Source: Amycolatopsis viridis (GTDB lineage: Bacteria; Actinomycetota; Actinomycetes; Mycobacteriales; Pseudonocardiaceae). From it: DNA of 64,000 nucleotides. The stretch spans positions 2,046,001 through 2,110,000 of the forward strand of contig NZ_JAANOU010000001.1 of assembly GCF_011758765.1 (NCBI RefSeq), given 5' to 3'. Both the position numbers and the translations under genes were made by a program. Of this stretch, positions 5,869 through 61,036 are shown piece by piece (position 1 is the first letter of the stretch; each line of letters opens with the position of its first letter). The notes under the pieces were generated by a model, which was given only the letters and a program-made list of their open reading frames with translations, ran no database searches and was not told the origin of the DNA.

Positions 5869-8800
5869 ATGATGGTCGTGCCCCGCCTAGGTTCCGGAAT
5901 CCCGCTGGTCGCCCGTGCTGACGAGATGCGACGGCTGCGTGCTGCCTTCGCCGCCGCCGACCGGGGTGAGGGCGGCGCGGTGCTCGTGTCCGGTGACGCC
6001 GGGGTGGGCAAGACGCGCCTGCTGACCGAGCTGTCCGAGCACGCCGCCTCCCGCGGCGCGCTCGTGCTCACCGGGCGGTGCCTGGACGTGCGGGAGGGCG
6101 GTCTGCCGTACCTGCCCTTCGCCGAGGCGCTGTCCCCGCTGAGCACGGACGAGGATCCGGTGGTGGCCGAGGCGGTGCGGCTCCGGCCGGCGCTGGCGCG
6201 GCTGCTGCCCCAGGGGGCGATGCCGCCGGCGCCGGGCGGTGAGTACCTGGTGCCGGACACGTCGGGGGAGCGGGACGTGCCGTACCGGGTCCGGCAGGAG
6301 CAGGACCTCGGACAGCTCCAGCTGTTCGACGCCGTGTTCGGGGTGCTGACCCGGATCGCCGAGCACCGGCCCGTCGTGCTGGTGCTGGAGGACCTGCACT
6401 GGGCCGACTCGTCCAGCCGGAACCTGCTGTCGTTCCTGCTCAACCGCCTGCGTGGGCATCGGTTGCTGGTCGTCGGCAGCTACCGGGAGGAGGACGTGCA
6501 CCGGCGGCACCCGTTGCGGGCGCTGCTGGTCGAGCTGGTCCGCCTGCCCGTGGTGTCGCGGATCGACCTGCGGCCGTTCGGCGCCGCGGAGGCGCGGGTG
6601 TTCGTCGAGGCCCTGGCCGACGGGCCGGTGTCGCCGGAGGTGCTGACGGACATCGCCGAGCGGTCGGAGGGCAACCCGTTCTTCGCCGAGGAGCTGATGG
6701 CCGCCGGCCTGGACTGCGAGGACCTGCCGGCCGGGCTCGCGGAGGTGCTGCTGTCGCGTCTGGAACGGCTGTCGCCGCAGGCGCGGCGCGTGGTGCGCAC
6801 CGTCTCGGCGGCGGGTGACTCGGTCGCGCACGCCGCGCTGGCCGAGGTCAGCGGGCTGGACGAGCTCGAGCTGGACGAGGCGCTGCGCGAGGCGGTGCAG
6901 CACCACGTGCTGGTCATCGAGCGCGGCGCCTACACGTTCCGGCACGCGTTGCTGCAGGAGGCGGTGTACGCGGACCTGTTGCCGGGGGAGCGGGTGCGCC
7001 TGCACGCGGCGTACGCCGGGCGCATCCGCCGCACCCCGCAGGGCCGTGGCCACGACGCGAAGCTCGCGTACCACAGCCTCCGCAGCAGGGACCTGACCGC
7101 GGCGCTGCCGGCGCTGGCGCGCGCGGCGGAGGAGGCCGAGCGGCTGGGCGCGCCGGGTGCGGCGCTGCGGCAGATCGAACAGGCGCTGGAGATCTGGGAC
7201 GCGGTTCCGGAGGCCGACCGGCCCGCCGACATCACCGAGCTGGACCTGCTGCAGGAGGCGTCCTACTTCGCCGGCACGTCCGGTGAGCCGGAGCGGGCCA
7301 TCGCCTACGCCCGCTCCTCGGTGCAGGCGCTGGGGCCGGACGTGCCGCCGGAGACGGCGGCCAAGACGTGGCGGCGCCTCGCCGAGGCGCTGCTCAACGC
7401 CGAGGGCACCCTGGACGAGGCGCTCGGCGCCATCAACCGTGCGTGGGAGCTGGTCGCCGAGCGCGAGCCGAGCAAGACCCGCGCGTGGGTGCTGGCCACC
7501 CGCGCCTCGATCCTGCGCAGTGCGGGTGAGTTCGAGGCGGCCAGCTGGAACGCGCACACGGCGGCCGCCGACGCGCAGGCCGTCGGCACGGCCGGCGGGG
7601 AGGCCGCCGCCCTGGTCACGCTGGGCGCGCTGGCGGACTGGGCGGGTGAACCGGTGGAGGCACGCAAGCGGCTGCGCGAGGCCGAGCGCAAAGCCGTCGA
7701 ATCCGATTCGCTGAACGTCGAGCTGCGGGCGATCTGCTACCAGGCGTTCAGCCACGAGGACCTGGGCGAGTACGCCGAGGCGATGGAGATCTACCGGCGC
7801 GGTATCGCGCGGGCCGAGCAGACCGGACTGACGTGGAGCATCTTCGGGCTGGAGATGCGCGCCCGGTACGTGACGCTGCGCTACCTCACCGGGGACTGGC
7901 CGGAGATGCCGGGCACGAACGCGCCCGCCCGGGGCGTGTCGAGCGTGCTGGCGGCGCGGATGACCTCGTCGTGGCTGCCGTTCGAGGTCGCGCGCGGCCG
8001 GGTGGCGACGGCCGAGAAGCTCCTGGAGGAGTTGCGGCCGCACTGGCGTGCCGAACCCGCGACCGCGATCGTGAGCGGGGCGACCGGGGCCGAACTCGCC
8101 TACTGGCAGGGTGACTACGAGCAGGCGGTGGAGCGGGCGCGGAAGGTCATCGACTTCCTCCTGGCGTCCGACGAGAACTACCTGCTCGCCACCGTCCGCC
8201 TGGGCGCGCTCGCGGTCGAGGCAGCCGCGGCGTGGGCGGGGAGCGCCCGCCCGCACGGCGATCAGGAGCGGGCCGAGCATGCGGCCGCGGTGGGCCGGGA
8301 GACGATCGAGCACGTGCGGTACGCGGTGGCAAACGGCCGGCCGCGGGCCCAGCAGGTCGGTCCGGAGGCGCGGGCCTGGCTGGCGCGGGCCGAGGCGTCG
8401 GCGAGCGGCCTGGAGGGCCCGGCCGATCCGTCGCTGTGGGCCGCGGCGGTCGCCGCGTTCGACTACGGCGCGGTCTACGAGCAGGCGATCTGCCGCTGGC
8501 ACCACGCCGAAGCGCTCCTGGCCGGACCGGGCGACGCCGGTCCGGCGGCGAAGGAGCTGCTGGCCGCGCACGAGGTCGCCGACCGCCTGGGAGCAGGCCC
8601 GCTGCGCACCGCGATCCGCGAACTGGCCCGCCGGGCGCGCATCGAGATCCCCGGGACGGAGCCGAAAGCCGCCCCCCGCACCACGATCGACCCGCTGACC
8701 GGACGCGAACGCGCCGTGCTCGAACGGGTGGCACTCGGCCGGACGAACAAGCAGGTGGGCGAGGAGCTGTACATCAGCGAGAAGACGGTGAGCGTGCACC

Positions 8801-57472: not shown

Positions 57473-58678
57473 ATGGATCTCAGGCAAGACGCGCAGGAGC
57501 TGTCCGGCGATCTCGTGGCACTGCGGCGCGCGCTCCACCAGGTTCCCGAACTCGGTCTCGACCTGCCCCGCACCCAGGAGACGGTCCTCGGCGCCCTCGA
57601 CGGCCTGCCCCTGGAGATCAGCACCGGCACCGGCCTCTCGTCGGTCACCGCGGTGCTGCGCGGTGCCCGGGACGGCGGCGGTGGCCCGGTCGTGCTGCTG
57701 CGCGGCGACATGGACGCGCTGCCGGTCACCGAGGACACCGGCGCCGAGTTCAGCTCGCGGCACGAGGGCCGGATGCACGCGTGCGGTCACGACCTGCACA
57801 CCGCGGGACTCGTCGGCGCCGCGAAGCTGCTGTCGGCACACCGGGACCGGCTCGCCGGGGACGTGGTGTTCATGTTCCAGCCCGGCGAGGAGGGCCACGA
57901 CGGTGCCGGGCGCATGATCGCCGAGGGCGTGCTGGAGGCGGCCGGCCGTCCGGTCGCCGAAGCCTACGGGCTGCACGTGGTGTCCGCGATGATCCCGCGC
58001 GGGATGTTCGTCTCGCGGCCGGGGCCGCTGATGGCCGCCGCCGACGGCCTGTTCGTGCGGGTGCTCGGCGCCGGCGGTCACGGGTCGCGGCCGCACGCCG
58101 CGCTCGACCCGGTGCCGGCGGCGTGCGAGATGGTGACCGCGCTGCAGACGATGGTGACCCGCCGGTTCAGCGTGTTCGACCCGGTCGTGGTCACCGTCGG
58201 CACCTTCCACGCCGGCACCCAGCGCAACATCATCCCCCCGGACGCCCGCTTCGAGGCCACCATCCGCAGTTTCTCCCGGCAGGCGCGGGAGCGGGTGGCG
58301 GAGCTGGCCGTCCCGCTGTGCCGGGACATCGCCGCGGCGCACGGCCTCGAGGTGGAGATCCGGTACCAGGCCGAGTACCCGGTCACCGTCAACGACCCGG
58401 CCGGGCACGAGTTCGTCGCCGAGACCGTGCGGGAGGTGTTCGGCGAGGAGCGGTTCGCGGTGGCTCCGGATCCGGTCACCGGGTCCGAGGACTTCTCACG
58501 CGTGCTGGATCGCGTCCCGGGCGCGTTCGTGTTCCTCGGTGCGACCTTCGCCGACGACCCCGACTCGGCTCCCTACAACCATTCTCCGCAGGCATCGTTC
58601 GACGACAGCGTGCTCGCCGACGGCGCTGCGCTGCTCGCCGAACTGGCCGCGCGGCGCCTGCAGGGGGTGCCAGCATGA
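57473..58678 (+). CDS. M20 family amidohydrolase/carboxypeptidase
   Basis: A 401-residue dinuclear-zinc hydrolase of the M20D (hippurate/IAA-amino acid hydrolase) class, cutting N-acyl amino acids. Motifs are LRRALHQVPELGL, LLRGDMDALPVTED, the metal site HACGHDLHTAGLVGAA, PGEEGHDGAGRMI with the general base Glu, GGHGSRPHAALDP, and EDFSRVLDRVPGAFVFLG with a final metal ligand. It overlaps the next amidohydrolase gene by four bases (ATGA), giving a two-gene operon. Substrate unknown. Confidence 0.88.
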   Translation: MDLRQDAQELSGDLVALRRALHQVPELGLDLPRTQETVLGALDGLPLEISTGTGLSSVTAVLRGARDGGGGPVVLLRGDMDALPVTEDTGAEFSSRHEGRMHACGHDLHTAGLVGAAKLLSAHRDRLAGDVVFMFQPGEEGHDGAGRMIAEGVLEAAGRPVAEAYGLHVVSAMIPRGMFVSRPGPLMAAADGLFVRVLGAGGHGSRPHAALDPVPAACEMVTALQTMVTRRFSVFDPVVVTVGTFHAGTQRNIIPPDARFEATIRSFSRQARERVAELAVPLCRDIAAAHGLEVEIRYQAEYPVTVNDPAGHEFVAETVREVFGEERFAVAPDPVTGSEDFSRVLDRVPGAFVFLGATFADDPDSAPYNHSPQASFDDSVLADGAALLAELAARRLQGVPA

Positions 58679-59895
58679 CCCGGATCCTGTTCGCCGGCGG
58701 CCGCGTGTTCGACGGTACCGGCAGCGACCCGTTCGAGGCGGACGTGGTGGTCGAGGACGGGCGCATCGCCGGGATCGGCACCGGCCTGGACGGCGACGAG
58801 GTCGTCGACTGCGCCGGCACCACGCTGCTGCCCGGCCTGTTCGACTGCCACGTGCACGTCACGGTGTCCGACATCAGCCTGATCAAGCAGTTCCAGAAAC
58901 CGTTTTCCTACCAGTTCTACGAGGCCGCGCGGAACCTGCGCAGCACCCTGGAGCTGGGCATCACGACGGTGCGGGACGCGGGCGGCGCCGATCTCGGCAT
59001 CAAGAAGGCGCAGGCGGACGGACTGATCGCCGGTCCGCGGCTGGACATCTCGATCGGGATCATCAGCCAGACCGGCGGGCACGGCGACGACTGGATGCCC
59101 TCCGGGCACTGCGTCCCGCTGACGCTGCCGCATCCCGGCCGCCCGCGGACGGTGGTCGACGGGCCGGACGAGATGCGCAAGGTCGCCCGCACCCTGCTGC
59201 GCGCCGGGGCCGACGTGCTCAAGGTGTGCACGACCGGCGGTGTCCTCTCCCCGGGCGACGACCCGCGGCACACGCAGTTCTCGCCGGCCGAGCTCGACGT
59301 GCTCGTCGCCGAGGCGGCGATGCAGGGTAAGGCGGTGATGGCGCACGCACAGGGCACCGACGGCATCAAGAACGCGGTGCGGGCCGGGATCCGGTCCATC
59401 GAGCACGGGATCTACCTCGACGACGAGGCCATCGACCTGATGCTCGCGCACGGCACCTGGCTCGTGCCGACGCTGATCGCGCCGATCGCGGTGATCCGCG
59501 CGGCCCGGGCCGGCGCCGCCCTGACCGACGAGATGATCCGCAAGGCCGAGGACGTCGCCGAGGTGCACGCGGACTCGGTGCGCCGGGCGGTCGAAGCGGG
59601 GGTGAAGATCGCGACGGGCACCGACAGCGGTGTCGGCCCGCACGGCACGAACCTCGAGGAGCTGCCGTTGATGCTGGCGGCCGGGATGACGCCGGGTCAG
59701 GTGCTCGCGGCATCCACCTCGTCGGCCGCCGAGCTGCTCGGGTACGGCGACTCGCTGGGGCGGCTCGCACCCGGGTTCCGCGCGGACCTGGTGGTCGCCT
59801 CCGGCGACCCCTACGACCTGGCCGCGCTGCCCGGGCGCATCCGGGAGGTGTGGCAGGACGGCGTGCAGGTGGTGGCCCCGGGTGCAGCGAAGTGA
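58675..59895 (+). CDS. amidohydrolase superfamily protein (Sgx9260/imidazolonepropionase-like)
   Basis: A 406-residue metal-dependent TIM-barrel amidohydrolase. First metal motif is LPGLFDCHVHVTVSD (HxH), the bridging lysine is in ADVLKVCTTGG, then His in VMAHAQGTDGIKNAVRAG and SIEHGIYL, and Asp in IATGTDSGVGPHG. This set resembles Xaa-Pro or N-acyl dipeptidase relatives (Sgx9260 group) rather than imidazolonepropionase. Co-transcribed with the M20 enzyme, suggesting sequential breakdown of an amide- or peptide-bearing compound. Confidence 0.87.
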   Translation: MTRILFAGGRVFDGTGSDPFEADVVVEDGRIAGIGTGLDGDEVVDCAGTTLLPGLFDCHVHVTVSDISLIKQFQKPFSYQFYEAARNLRSTLELGITTVRDAGGADLGIKKAQADGLIAGPRLDISIGIISQTGGHGDDWMPSGHCVPLTLPHPGRPRTVVDGPDEMRKVARTLLRAGADVLKVCTTGGVLSPGDDPRHTQFSPAELDVLVAEAAMQGKAVMAHAQGTDGIKNAVRAGIRSIEHGIYLDDEAIDLMLAHGTWLVPTLIAPIAVIRAARAGAALTDEMIRKAEDVAEVHADSVRRAVEAGVKIATGTDSGVGPHGTNLEELPLMLAAGMTPGQVLAASTSSAAELLGYGDSLGRLAPGFRADLVVASGDPYDLAALPGRIREVWQDGVQVVAPGAAK

Positions 59896-59937
59896 CCTTC
59901 GCGCGGGTGCTGCGCCCGCCGGCGGAGACCGGCACGT

Positions 59938-60070
59938 GAAAAGACCCCCGGGCCGCACCGAACTGGGGGAGGAGGGCACGGCCCGGGGGCCTACGCTCCA
60001 GCGCCCGAGGGGGAGGTAAGCGCCGGAGCTCCGGCCGGTGCGAAACTGGGGAGGATGACACCGGCCGTAT
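59938..60070 (-). ncRNA. candidate small RNA with three CCUCC-loop hairpins
   Basis: Read on the minus strand from about 60070, three hairpins follow each other. Hairpin 1: 9-bp stem, 60059-60067 with 60032-60040, loop with CCUCCCC. Hairpin 2: 10-bp stem, 60020-60029 with 59995-60004, containing one G-U pair, loop with CCUCCCCC. Hairpin 3: 11-bp stem, 59979-59989 with 59945-59955, loop with CCCUCCUCCCCC, then the tail UCUUUUC. A -10-like TATCCT sits at 60077-60082. The wobble and the U-tail fit only the minus strand. It resembles 6C-type or cuckoo-type anti-Shine-Dalgarno RNAs. Confidence 0.7.
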
Positions 60071-60144
60071 GTCATCAGGATAGCGCGCGTTGTCCCGCCG
60101 GAAACGGTTTCTCAGGAACTCGGCAGGTTTCCGGCGGGAGCGGG

Positions 60145-60948
60145 TCAGAGCACCAGATCGGCGAGAACGACGTTCAGCGCCGCGGCGAAGGTTTTCGCGT
60201 CCCGTTGCGGGGCCAGGTGTGCCCCGGGCAGCTCGACGAACGGCAGTCCGAGTTCGAGGGCGAGCGCGCGAGCCGGCCGGTAGTGGTAGTAGCCGCGGCT
60301 GCCCTCGCCCGCGGTCAGCACGATCGGCACCGGGGTGCGGCGCAGCGCGTCCAGGTCCGGCAGGTAGCGGTAGATGCCGACGAGTTCGCGGTCGAACAGC
60401 ACCTGCCACTCGTGTTCGTGCGGCAGGCGCACGGTCTTGAGCGGGGGCAGCCCGGCGCCCGCGATCGAGGCGAGGAAGGCCCGGAAGGCGCCGAAGACAT
60501 CGCCGGAGGCGCTCCGCGCCGCCTGTTCCCGGGCGAAGGCGATCCAGTCCTCGGCGTCCGGCAGCAGGCCGACCGCCGGTGGCTCGTGCACGACCAGGCC
60601 ACCCACCACCTCCGGGTGCCGGGCGGCCAGCTCCAGGCCGATCTGACCGCCCGCGCTGCTGCCGAACACGAGCGCCTTGCCGTAGCCGAAGTGCTCGACA
60701 ACGGCCCGCGCGTCGTCGGCGTGGCGGGTGACGGTGAGCGGGCCGCCGGTGCGGCTCGCGCTGCCGAAGTGGCCGCGCCGGTCGTACCCGAGGACGGTGT
60801 AGTCCCGGGCGAGTTCGTCGGCGAGGGCGTGGTAGGCGGCCGCGGCGCCGGTGCCCCCGGCGACCAGGAGCAGGGCCGGACCCGATCCGCGCCGCTCGAC
60901 GTGCAGTTGCCCGTCCGGCACCGGGCACGTACCGCTGTCCGAGATCAT
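60145..60948 (-). CDS. alpha/beta-hydrolase
   Basis: A 267-residue alpha/beta-hydrolase. The strand-helix core is visible in GPALLLVAGGTGAAAAYHALADEL, VLGYDRRGHFGSA, the nucleophile elbow FGSSAGGQIGLELAAR (Ser in GSSAGG), and a late PGAHLAPQRDAKTF with the catalytic His. It could be an esterase or C-C hydrolase. Start ATG 60948 is preferred over GTG 61014 because residues before it are low-complexity Ala-rich, but no ribosome site marks it. Convergent with the sRNA candidate region. Confidence 0.8.
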   Translation of the reverse strand: MISDSGTCPVPDGQLHVERRGSGPALLLVAGGTGAAAAYHALADELARDYTVLGYDRRGHFGSASRTGGPLTVTRHADDARAVVEHFGYGKALVFGSSAGGQIGLELAARHPEVVGGLVVHEPPAVGLLPDAEDWIAFAREQAARSASGDVFGAFRAFLASIAGAGLPPLKTVRLPHEHEWQVLFDRELVGIYRYLPDLDALRRTPVPIVLTAGEGSRGYYHYRPARALALELGLPFVELPGAHLAPQRDAKTFAAALNVVLADLVL

Positions 60949-61036
60949 GTGCGCAGTCAAGCACAGCGCGGCGGCCCGCCCCGCCGCCAGGGCCGCGTCG
61001 GCGCCGCCCTCCACAGTGGATCGGGGCGGTCTCTGG

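Follow-up and report, generated by a model that had tools for sequence, protein, structure and literature searches.

Intergenic regions that could fold into RNA with C-rich loops raise the question of whether they are RNA genes and, if so, what the loops are for. We examined such a region in Amycolatopsis viridis, within a 64,000-nt stretch of genomic DNA (the window). An earlier note, made from the letters of the window, had proposed a candidate small RNA with three C-rich-loop hairpins on the minus strand at positions 59938 to 60070. Sequence, predicted fold, and conservation agree with that proposal, and they indicate that 59938 to 60070 is a real, conserved RNA gene.

Three hairpins are predicted on the minus strand

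The small RNA gene, supported by a covariance model and by conservation, spans 59938 to 60070 on the minus strand, with a predicted length of about 133 nt and a predicted RNA start near 60070. Folding places hairpin 1 at 60032 to 60067, with the loop CAUCCUCCCCAGUUUC at 60057 to 60042; hairpin 2 at 59995 to 60029, with the loop UUACCUCCCCCUCGG at 60019 to 60005; and hairpin 3, a terminator-like stem, at 59943 to 59991, with the loop CUCCUCCCCCAGUUC at 59974 to 59960. The loops are of two types: loops 1 and 3 carry UCCUCCCC(C)AGUU, and loop 2 carries ACCUCCCCCUCGG. This three-hairpin fold had a minimum free energy of -81.9 kcal/mol (z = -5.0), which none of 200 shuffled sequences equaled; the plus-strand fold was weaker (z = -2.0), with 5 of 200 shuffles as good. 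The loop cores had predicted ensemble unpaired values of 0.73 to 0.80 for loop 1 (in the 17 aligned sequences having it), 0.78 to 0.90 for loop 2, and 0.83 to 0.92 for loop 3, higher than the 0.33 to 0.42 of the whole RNA in the same prediction.

The window holds 21 single hairpins with C-rich loops, no more than expected by chance: 30 Markov shuffles averaged 25.3. Three of them clustered within about 150 nt occurred in one of the 30 shuffled windows. Chance is nevertheless excluded as the origin of the cluster, because 18 of the 19 genus genomes keep the RNA with compensatory changes in its stems. A small protein encoded at the locus is not supported, since indels of 1 to 2 nt separate relatives inside the RNA.

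The RNA is conserved within Amycolatopsis

A DNA search of 61 genomes recovered the RNA from 18 of 19 genus members, A. viridis among them, and from no other genome (0 of 42). Conservation of loops and stems in relatives, on which the earlier note had let its proposal depend, was therefore present. The covariance model built from those 18 loci (R1) matches 59933 to 60071 on the minus strand at 140.3 bits, this sequence being among the ones that built it. Run over 39 relatives at E values up to 1, R1 gave strong matches in the same 18 genomes. Weak second places turned up in five of them, G006 gave a reverse-strand echo, and three further genomes (G020, G021, and G049) had one weak place each. 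With strict filters, R1 matched 11 of 200 family genomes, every one in this genus. The remaining genus member, G016, had neither the RNA in the DNA and R1 searches nor a match to the neighboring hydrolase at E values up to 1e-40. A pattern scan of the contigs of 84,980 genomes, which may omit the A. viridis record and close ones, returned 11 stretches. Nine came from Amycolatopsis (tucumanensis, deserti, thermalba, sacchari, alkalitolerans, acididurans, acidicola, pithecellobii, and sp. GM8) and two from metagenome-assembled genomes (MAGs); single-sequence folding gave such hairpins in one of these MAG stretches (L037) and none in the other (L034). In these searches, the RNA is found in one genus group, Amycolatopsis.

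The consensus predicted by RNAalifold has three hairpins and 35 pairs, with 98.6% of 560 cells paired in the 16 distinct rows. Nine of the 35 pairs changed on both sides, compared with 4.2 in shuffled alignments, and none of 500 shuffles reached that number; when the structure was slid along the alignment as a control, at most 3 pairs had both-side changes. Hairpin 1 contributes most of the covariation (5 of 10 pairs), followed by hairpin 3 (3 of 15). Hairpin 2 is paired in 100% of cells, with a both-side change in 1 of 10 pairs and 7 of 10 pairs invariant. The loop cores UCCUCCCCAGUU (loop 1), CUCCCCCUCG (loop 2), and UCCUCCCCCA (loop 3) are each kept in 17 of 18 rows. Mean column conservation was 0.928 for loops and 0.906 for stems, so the stems are almost equal to the loops by this measure. 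The alignment also contains one sequence, from G015, without loop 1, and a two-loop form therefore exists.

The RNA resembles known C-loop RNAs without belonging to their families

No Rfam family reached its gathering threshold in the window. The best subthreshold scores in 59700 to 60300 were 27.8 bits for ar14 (threshold, 58.8), 25.3 bits for ar7 (60), and 20 bits for sX13 (50). Elsewhere, a match to the guanidine-III riboswitch model lay below its threshold in another stretch (L018, 726 to 775, plus strand; 25.1 against 36 bits).

The earlier note had named actinobacterial 6C RNA as an analogue, and we ran the Rfam model of that family (RF01066; membership cutoff, 47 bits). It had no match in 59700 to 60300 at E values up to 10, and the genome's own 6C RNA lies elsewhere, at C1:626443-626515 (68.9 bits); membership in 6C is rejected on both grounds. 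A 6C RNA over the cutoff was present in 15 of the 19 genus genomes. Both RNAs are actinobacterial and have C-rich loops, but 6C/B11 carries runs of C in two loops and occupies a separate locus in the same genome, whereas the RNA described here has three hairpins and mixed C/U loops with AGUU or UCGG tails. R1 scored weakly on 3 of 10 canonical 6C loci tested (L043, 23.8 bits; L001, 22.5 bits; L046, 21.6 bits) and on other C-loop loci, including the second RNA described below (L161, 18.4 bits). We read these weak scores as shared design and not as descent.

The other analogue put forward, the alphaproteobacterial "cuckoo" RNAs, fits in design and fails as a family assignment. These RNAs (ar14, RF02344; also alpha-r14/NfeR1 and SmelA075) are described as having three hairpins in a row, anti-Shine-Dalgarno C-rich loops, and variable stems (PMC10746234, PMC3927594). 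The same arrangement is found here, with stems that vary most in hairpin 1 and little in hairpin 2, and ar14 was the best Rfam resemblance (E = 0.003 in the 601-base search). Each ar14 loop carries an identical CCUCCUCCC in those descriptions, whereas the Amycolatopsis loops are of two types; this difference and the score below threshold led us to reject membership. Judged from sequence, the three-hairpin design is most similar to that of ar14/cuckoo RNAs, and common descent is without support. The likeness may reflect convergence with the alphaproteobacterial design, because these searches returned no intermediate homologue.

Among other actinobacterial RNAs, Streptomyces scr5583 and scr1434 likewise have a C-rich loop on a stable stem, but the account in PMC3765725 describes a single such loop. 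The model of Scr3202 (RF02833) scored 18.7 bits here, against a cutoff of 52, and 32.7 bits in one relative. No description of the Amycolatopsis three-loop RNA was found in the literature searched, supplements aside, and it is apparently undescribed.

The loop 2 sequence recurs on other stems

A second unannotated C-loop RNA, which we call RNA-B, lies in the A. viridis genome at C1:4171404-4171559 on the minus strand (L115 and L161; orthologues L162 to L178), preceded by a gene that we take, from its C terminus, to be rsmE. Its loops are ACCUCCCCC(C)UCGG and GACCCCCAG; it has a CCCCCAG loop on its terminal hairpin and a -10-like box, TANNCT. RNA-B had a strong match in 18 of the 19 genus genomes and a weak one in G015. 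Its fold comprises three hairpins, stem 2 being invariant, and its covariation is weaker (3 pairs, versus 1.0 in shuffles). The loop 2 sequence and the -10-like box are shared with the three-loop RNA, but the stems and synteny differ, as does the distribution. The RNA-B core GACACCTCCCCC(N)TCGGTC, as a sequence motif with folds taken from the genus, occurred in 32 of 397 genomes of the order, in 13 genera and all among the 79 genomes of this family, whereas the three-loop RNA was confined to one genus group. The reversed core pattern was absent from the matches listed.

The loop 2 motif ACCTCCCCCTCGG had 37 exact matches in the 19 genomes, compared with 6 for the reversed pattern. Nine of the 37 are the three-loop RNA itself. 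The other 28 fall into three sets: five occupy loops at sRNA-like hairpin loci (L115, L093, L119, L129, and L091); eight belong to a single type of long hairpin, GGAAGCCCCGGCCC-ACCTCCCCCTCGG-CGGGCCGGGGCTTCC, that recurs in eight genomes (L116, L123, L125, L126, L132, L136, L138, and L140); and 15 sit in no such hairpin. Three examples of the long hairpin (L116, L123, and L126) had no match in Rfam or with a tRNA finder. That one loop is carried by different stems at separate loci suggests that it is the loop that does the work.

Further loci with C-rich loops came to light in these searches. At the lineage-specific loci L119, L129, L092, L091, L094, and L095 (in G009, G007, G018, G011, G003, and G005), a hairpin whose loop is of the CUCCCCC(C)UCGG type precedes a strong terminal hairpin. 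TACACT stands upstream of the first three, and subthreshold scores were obtained for L091 with Scr3202 (35.9 bits) and for L092 with ar14 (31.6 bits). In the MAG stretch L037 (Acidobacteria contig JAKBAG010000133.1), positions 7672 to 7735 form two hairpins whose loops contain CCUCCCCAGUU and CCUCCCCCUC, the second followed by TTTTGTTTTT; this locus is a candidate anti-Shine-Dalgarno sRNA in another phylum.

The loops may block Shine-Dalgarno sites

The anatomy of the RNA and the precedents of B11/6C and ar14 led us to the reading that it acts on ribosome-binding sites. In Mycobacterium abscessus, the genes upregulated on deletion of B11, a 6C RNA, are reported to be enriched for complements at their ribosome-binding sites, and either B11 loop is reported to suffice for repression of a target 5' untranslated region (UTR) by pairing (PMC10470900). 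For ar14 RNAs, many mRNA targets are predicted in the published accounts (PMC10746234, PMC3927594). We consider it probable that the Amycolatopsis RNA is a stand-alone, intergenic, trans-acting antisense sRNA whose loops block Shine-Dalgarno sites and repress several mRNAs. RNA polymerase would start at a conserved TANNCTG -10-like box and terminate beyond hairpin 3, and the product of about 130 nt would be very stable. Its three rigid hairpins would present accessible C-rich loops of two kinds, and these would pair with G-rich Shine-Dalgarno regions and keep the ribosome off several mRNAs.

A survey of 251 gene starts, called across 464 kb with a crude GC-frame criterion and so indicative only, found loop complements of at least 7 nt in 15 Shine-Dalgarno windows, compared with 7 coding windows and with 7 for reversed letters, a control that also contains GGAGG and is not fully independent. 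At 5 to 6 nt, there was no difference between loop complements and reversed letters (100 versus 97 and 46 versus 48 of 251). Pairing with "many mRNAs," as the earlier note put it, is what we infer, and the complementarity in this small survey is modest. The exact complement AACTGGGG(N)AGG occurs in the A. viridis genome at only two sites besides the RNA gene (L051 and L052), and a script placed neither ahead of a start codon, so this search of its own genome gave no conserved ribosome-binding-site target. Extending the search to the 19 genomes, we viewed 40 stretches, a set that excludes the variants CAGG, AAGG, and TAGG as well as two more AACTGGGGAGG sites in G015. The sequence AACTGGGGAGG, which complements loop 1, is the apparent ribosome-binding site of a membrane-like protein in G009, G018, and G015 (L105, L106, and L114). 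This protein was matched in 10 of the 19 genomes, A. viridis having no match, and its start region was located in three of the 10. The AACTGGGG(N)AGG site precedes other open reading frames (ORFs) in single genomes (L056, L075, and L083).

Alternatively, the partner of the loops might be a protein, or else a G-rich regulatory RNA, instead of Shine-Dalgarno sites, making the molecule a scaffold or a sponge. The conserved loop sequences, with their AGUU and UCGG tails, are longer than a Shine-Dalgarno complement requires, and the reappearance of the loop 2 motif in RNA-B would also fit such a role. CCUCC-type loops are, however, the complement of GGAGG, and action on ribosome-binding sites has been shown or predicted for the nearest analogues that have been studied (PMC10470900, PMC10746234). 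We regard a scaffold or sponge as unlikely.

The RNA appears to be a separate minus-strand gene

The earlier note had pointed to a TATCCT -10-like box ahead of the RNA, and we found it by direct reading at 60082 to 60077 on the minus strand. Across the 18 loci, it corresponds to TANNCTG, whose T, A, C, T, and G columns are invariant in a free alignment; a second alignment that gave TANNCTG in 18 of 18 was anchored on that motif. Its distance to loop 1, measured at 16 loci, is 27 to 28 nt, also in six genomes where the box stands 554 nt or more from the hydrolase stop codon. No conserved -35 box was found in the 18 loci, nor was one found by a sigma-70 consensus scan. At the other end, the sequence UCUUUUC, which had been taken for a terminator tail, is indeed present at 59944 to 59938, and the U-rich tail 3' of hairpin 3 occupies 59938 to 59942. 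A terminator scan gave one match here, a small stem within hairpin 3 followed by the U-rich tail; it picked the small inner stem because its loops were limited to at most 8. The tail is less U-rich in several aligned relatives. The conserved features bearing on transcription of the RNA are the -10-like box and the terminator-like end, with a -35 consensus not found.

The RNA could instead be a processed 3' UTR, or a terminator or attenuator, of the mRNA of the upstream alpha/beta hydrolase gene (60145 to 61014, minus strand; Pfam Abhydrolase_1 and Abhydrolase_6), which is its same-strand neighbor in every one of the 18 RNA-bearing genomes. In a genome of another genus (G033, L159), the 900 nt downstream of a more distant hydrolase homologue held no C-rich cluster. 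An origin as hydrolase 3' UTR is at odds with the near-constant distance of the -10-like box from loop 1 and with the presence of three conserved loop sequences that a terminator does not need. Moreover, at least 554 nt separate the hydrolase stop codon from the box in 6 of the 18 genomes, and in both of the six that were inspected (G006 and G008), an opposite-strand ORF occupies the gap, the one in G006 being a Mac/Hexapep acetyltransferase by Pfam. An origin solely as hydrolase 3' UTR is disfavored by the box spacing, the wide gaps, and the opposite ORFs, and we hold it to be improbable. The conserved -10-like box, the variable hydrolase gap, and the neighbor data together suggest that the RNA travels with the hydrolase locus yet seems to have its own promoter.

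On the other side, an amidohydrolase gene (58675 to 59895, plus strand; Pfam Amidohydro_1) converges on the RNA. It overlaps an M20-family peptidase gene by a few bases, and the two (57473 to 59895, plus strand) look like one operon. A functional plus strand, either as a CsrA-type sponge with GGA loops (they would read GGGGAGGA, GAGGGGGAGG, and GGGGGAGGAGG) or simply as the amidohydrolase terminator, is barely credible, since 47 of the 560 aligned cells are G-U on the minus strand, against 1 A-C, and would become A-C mismatches; CsrA (PF02599) is encoded in none of the 19 genus genomes, so that the sponge is rejected; and the amidohydrolase is a full-length or nearly full-length neighbor in only 12 of the 18 loci (1.5-kb flank). 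The count of G-U against A-C cells identifies the minus strand as the RNA. The earlier argument from a G-U closing pair is correct in substance, the pairs in question being G60024-U60000, within hairpin 2, and G59990-U59944, close to the foot of the hairpin 3 stem.

Implications

Actinomycetes are a main source of antibiotics, and to our knowledge, only a small number of their base-pairing small RNAs have been characterized. The near-invariant loops of the conserved three-loop RNA offer a direct handle for experiment. It is possible, though we put this forward tentatively, that the three-loop RNA is one node of a network of C-loop RNAs in the family that jointly tune translation initiation, and that it is an independently evolved actinobacterial counterpart of the cuckoo RNAs with two loop specificities per molecule. 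If so, different stems, those of the three-loop RNA, RNA-B, 6C, and the lineage-specific loci, would display a small set of shared loops. Considered alongside RNA-B and 6C, the three-loop RNA suggests more than one origin for C-rich loops on interchangeable stems, which would be a general means of silencing ribosome-binding sites in GC-rich genomes.
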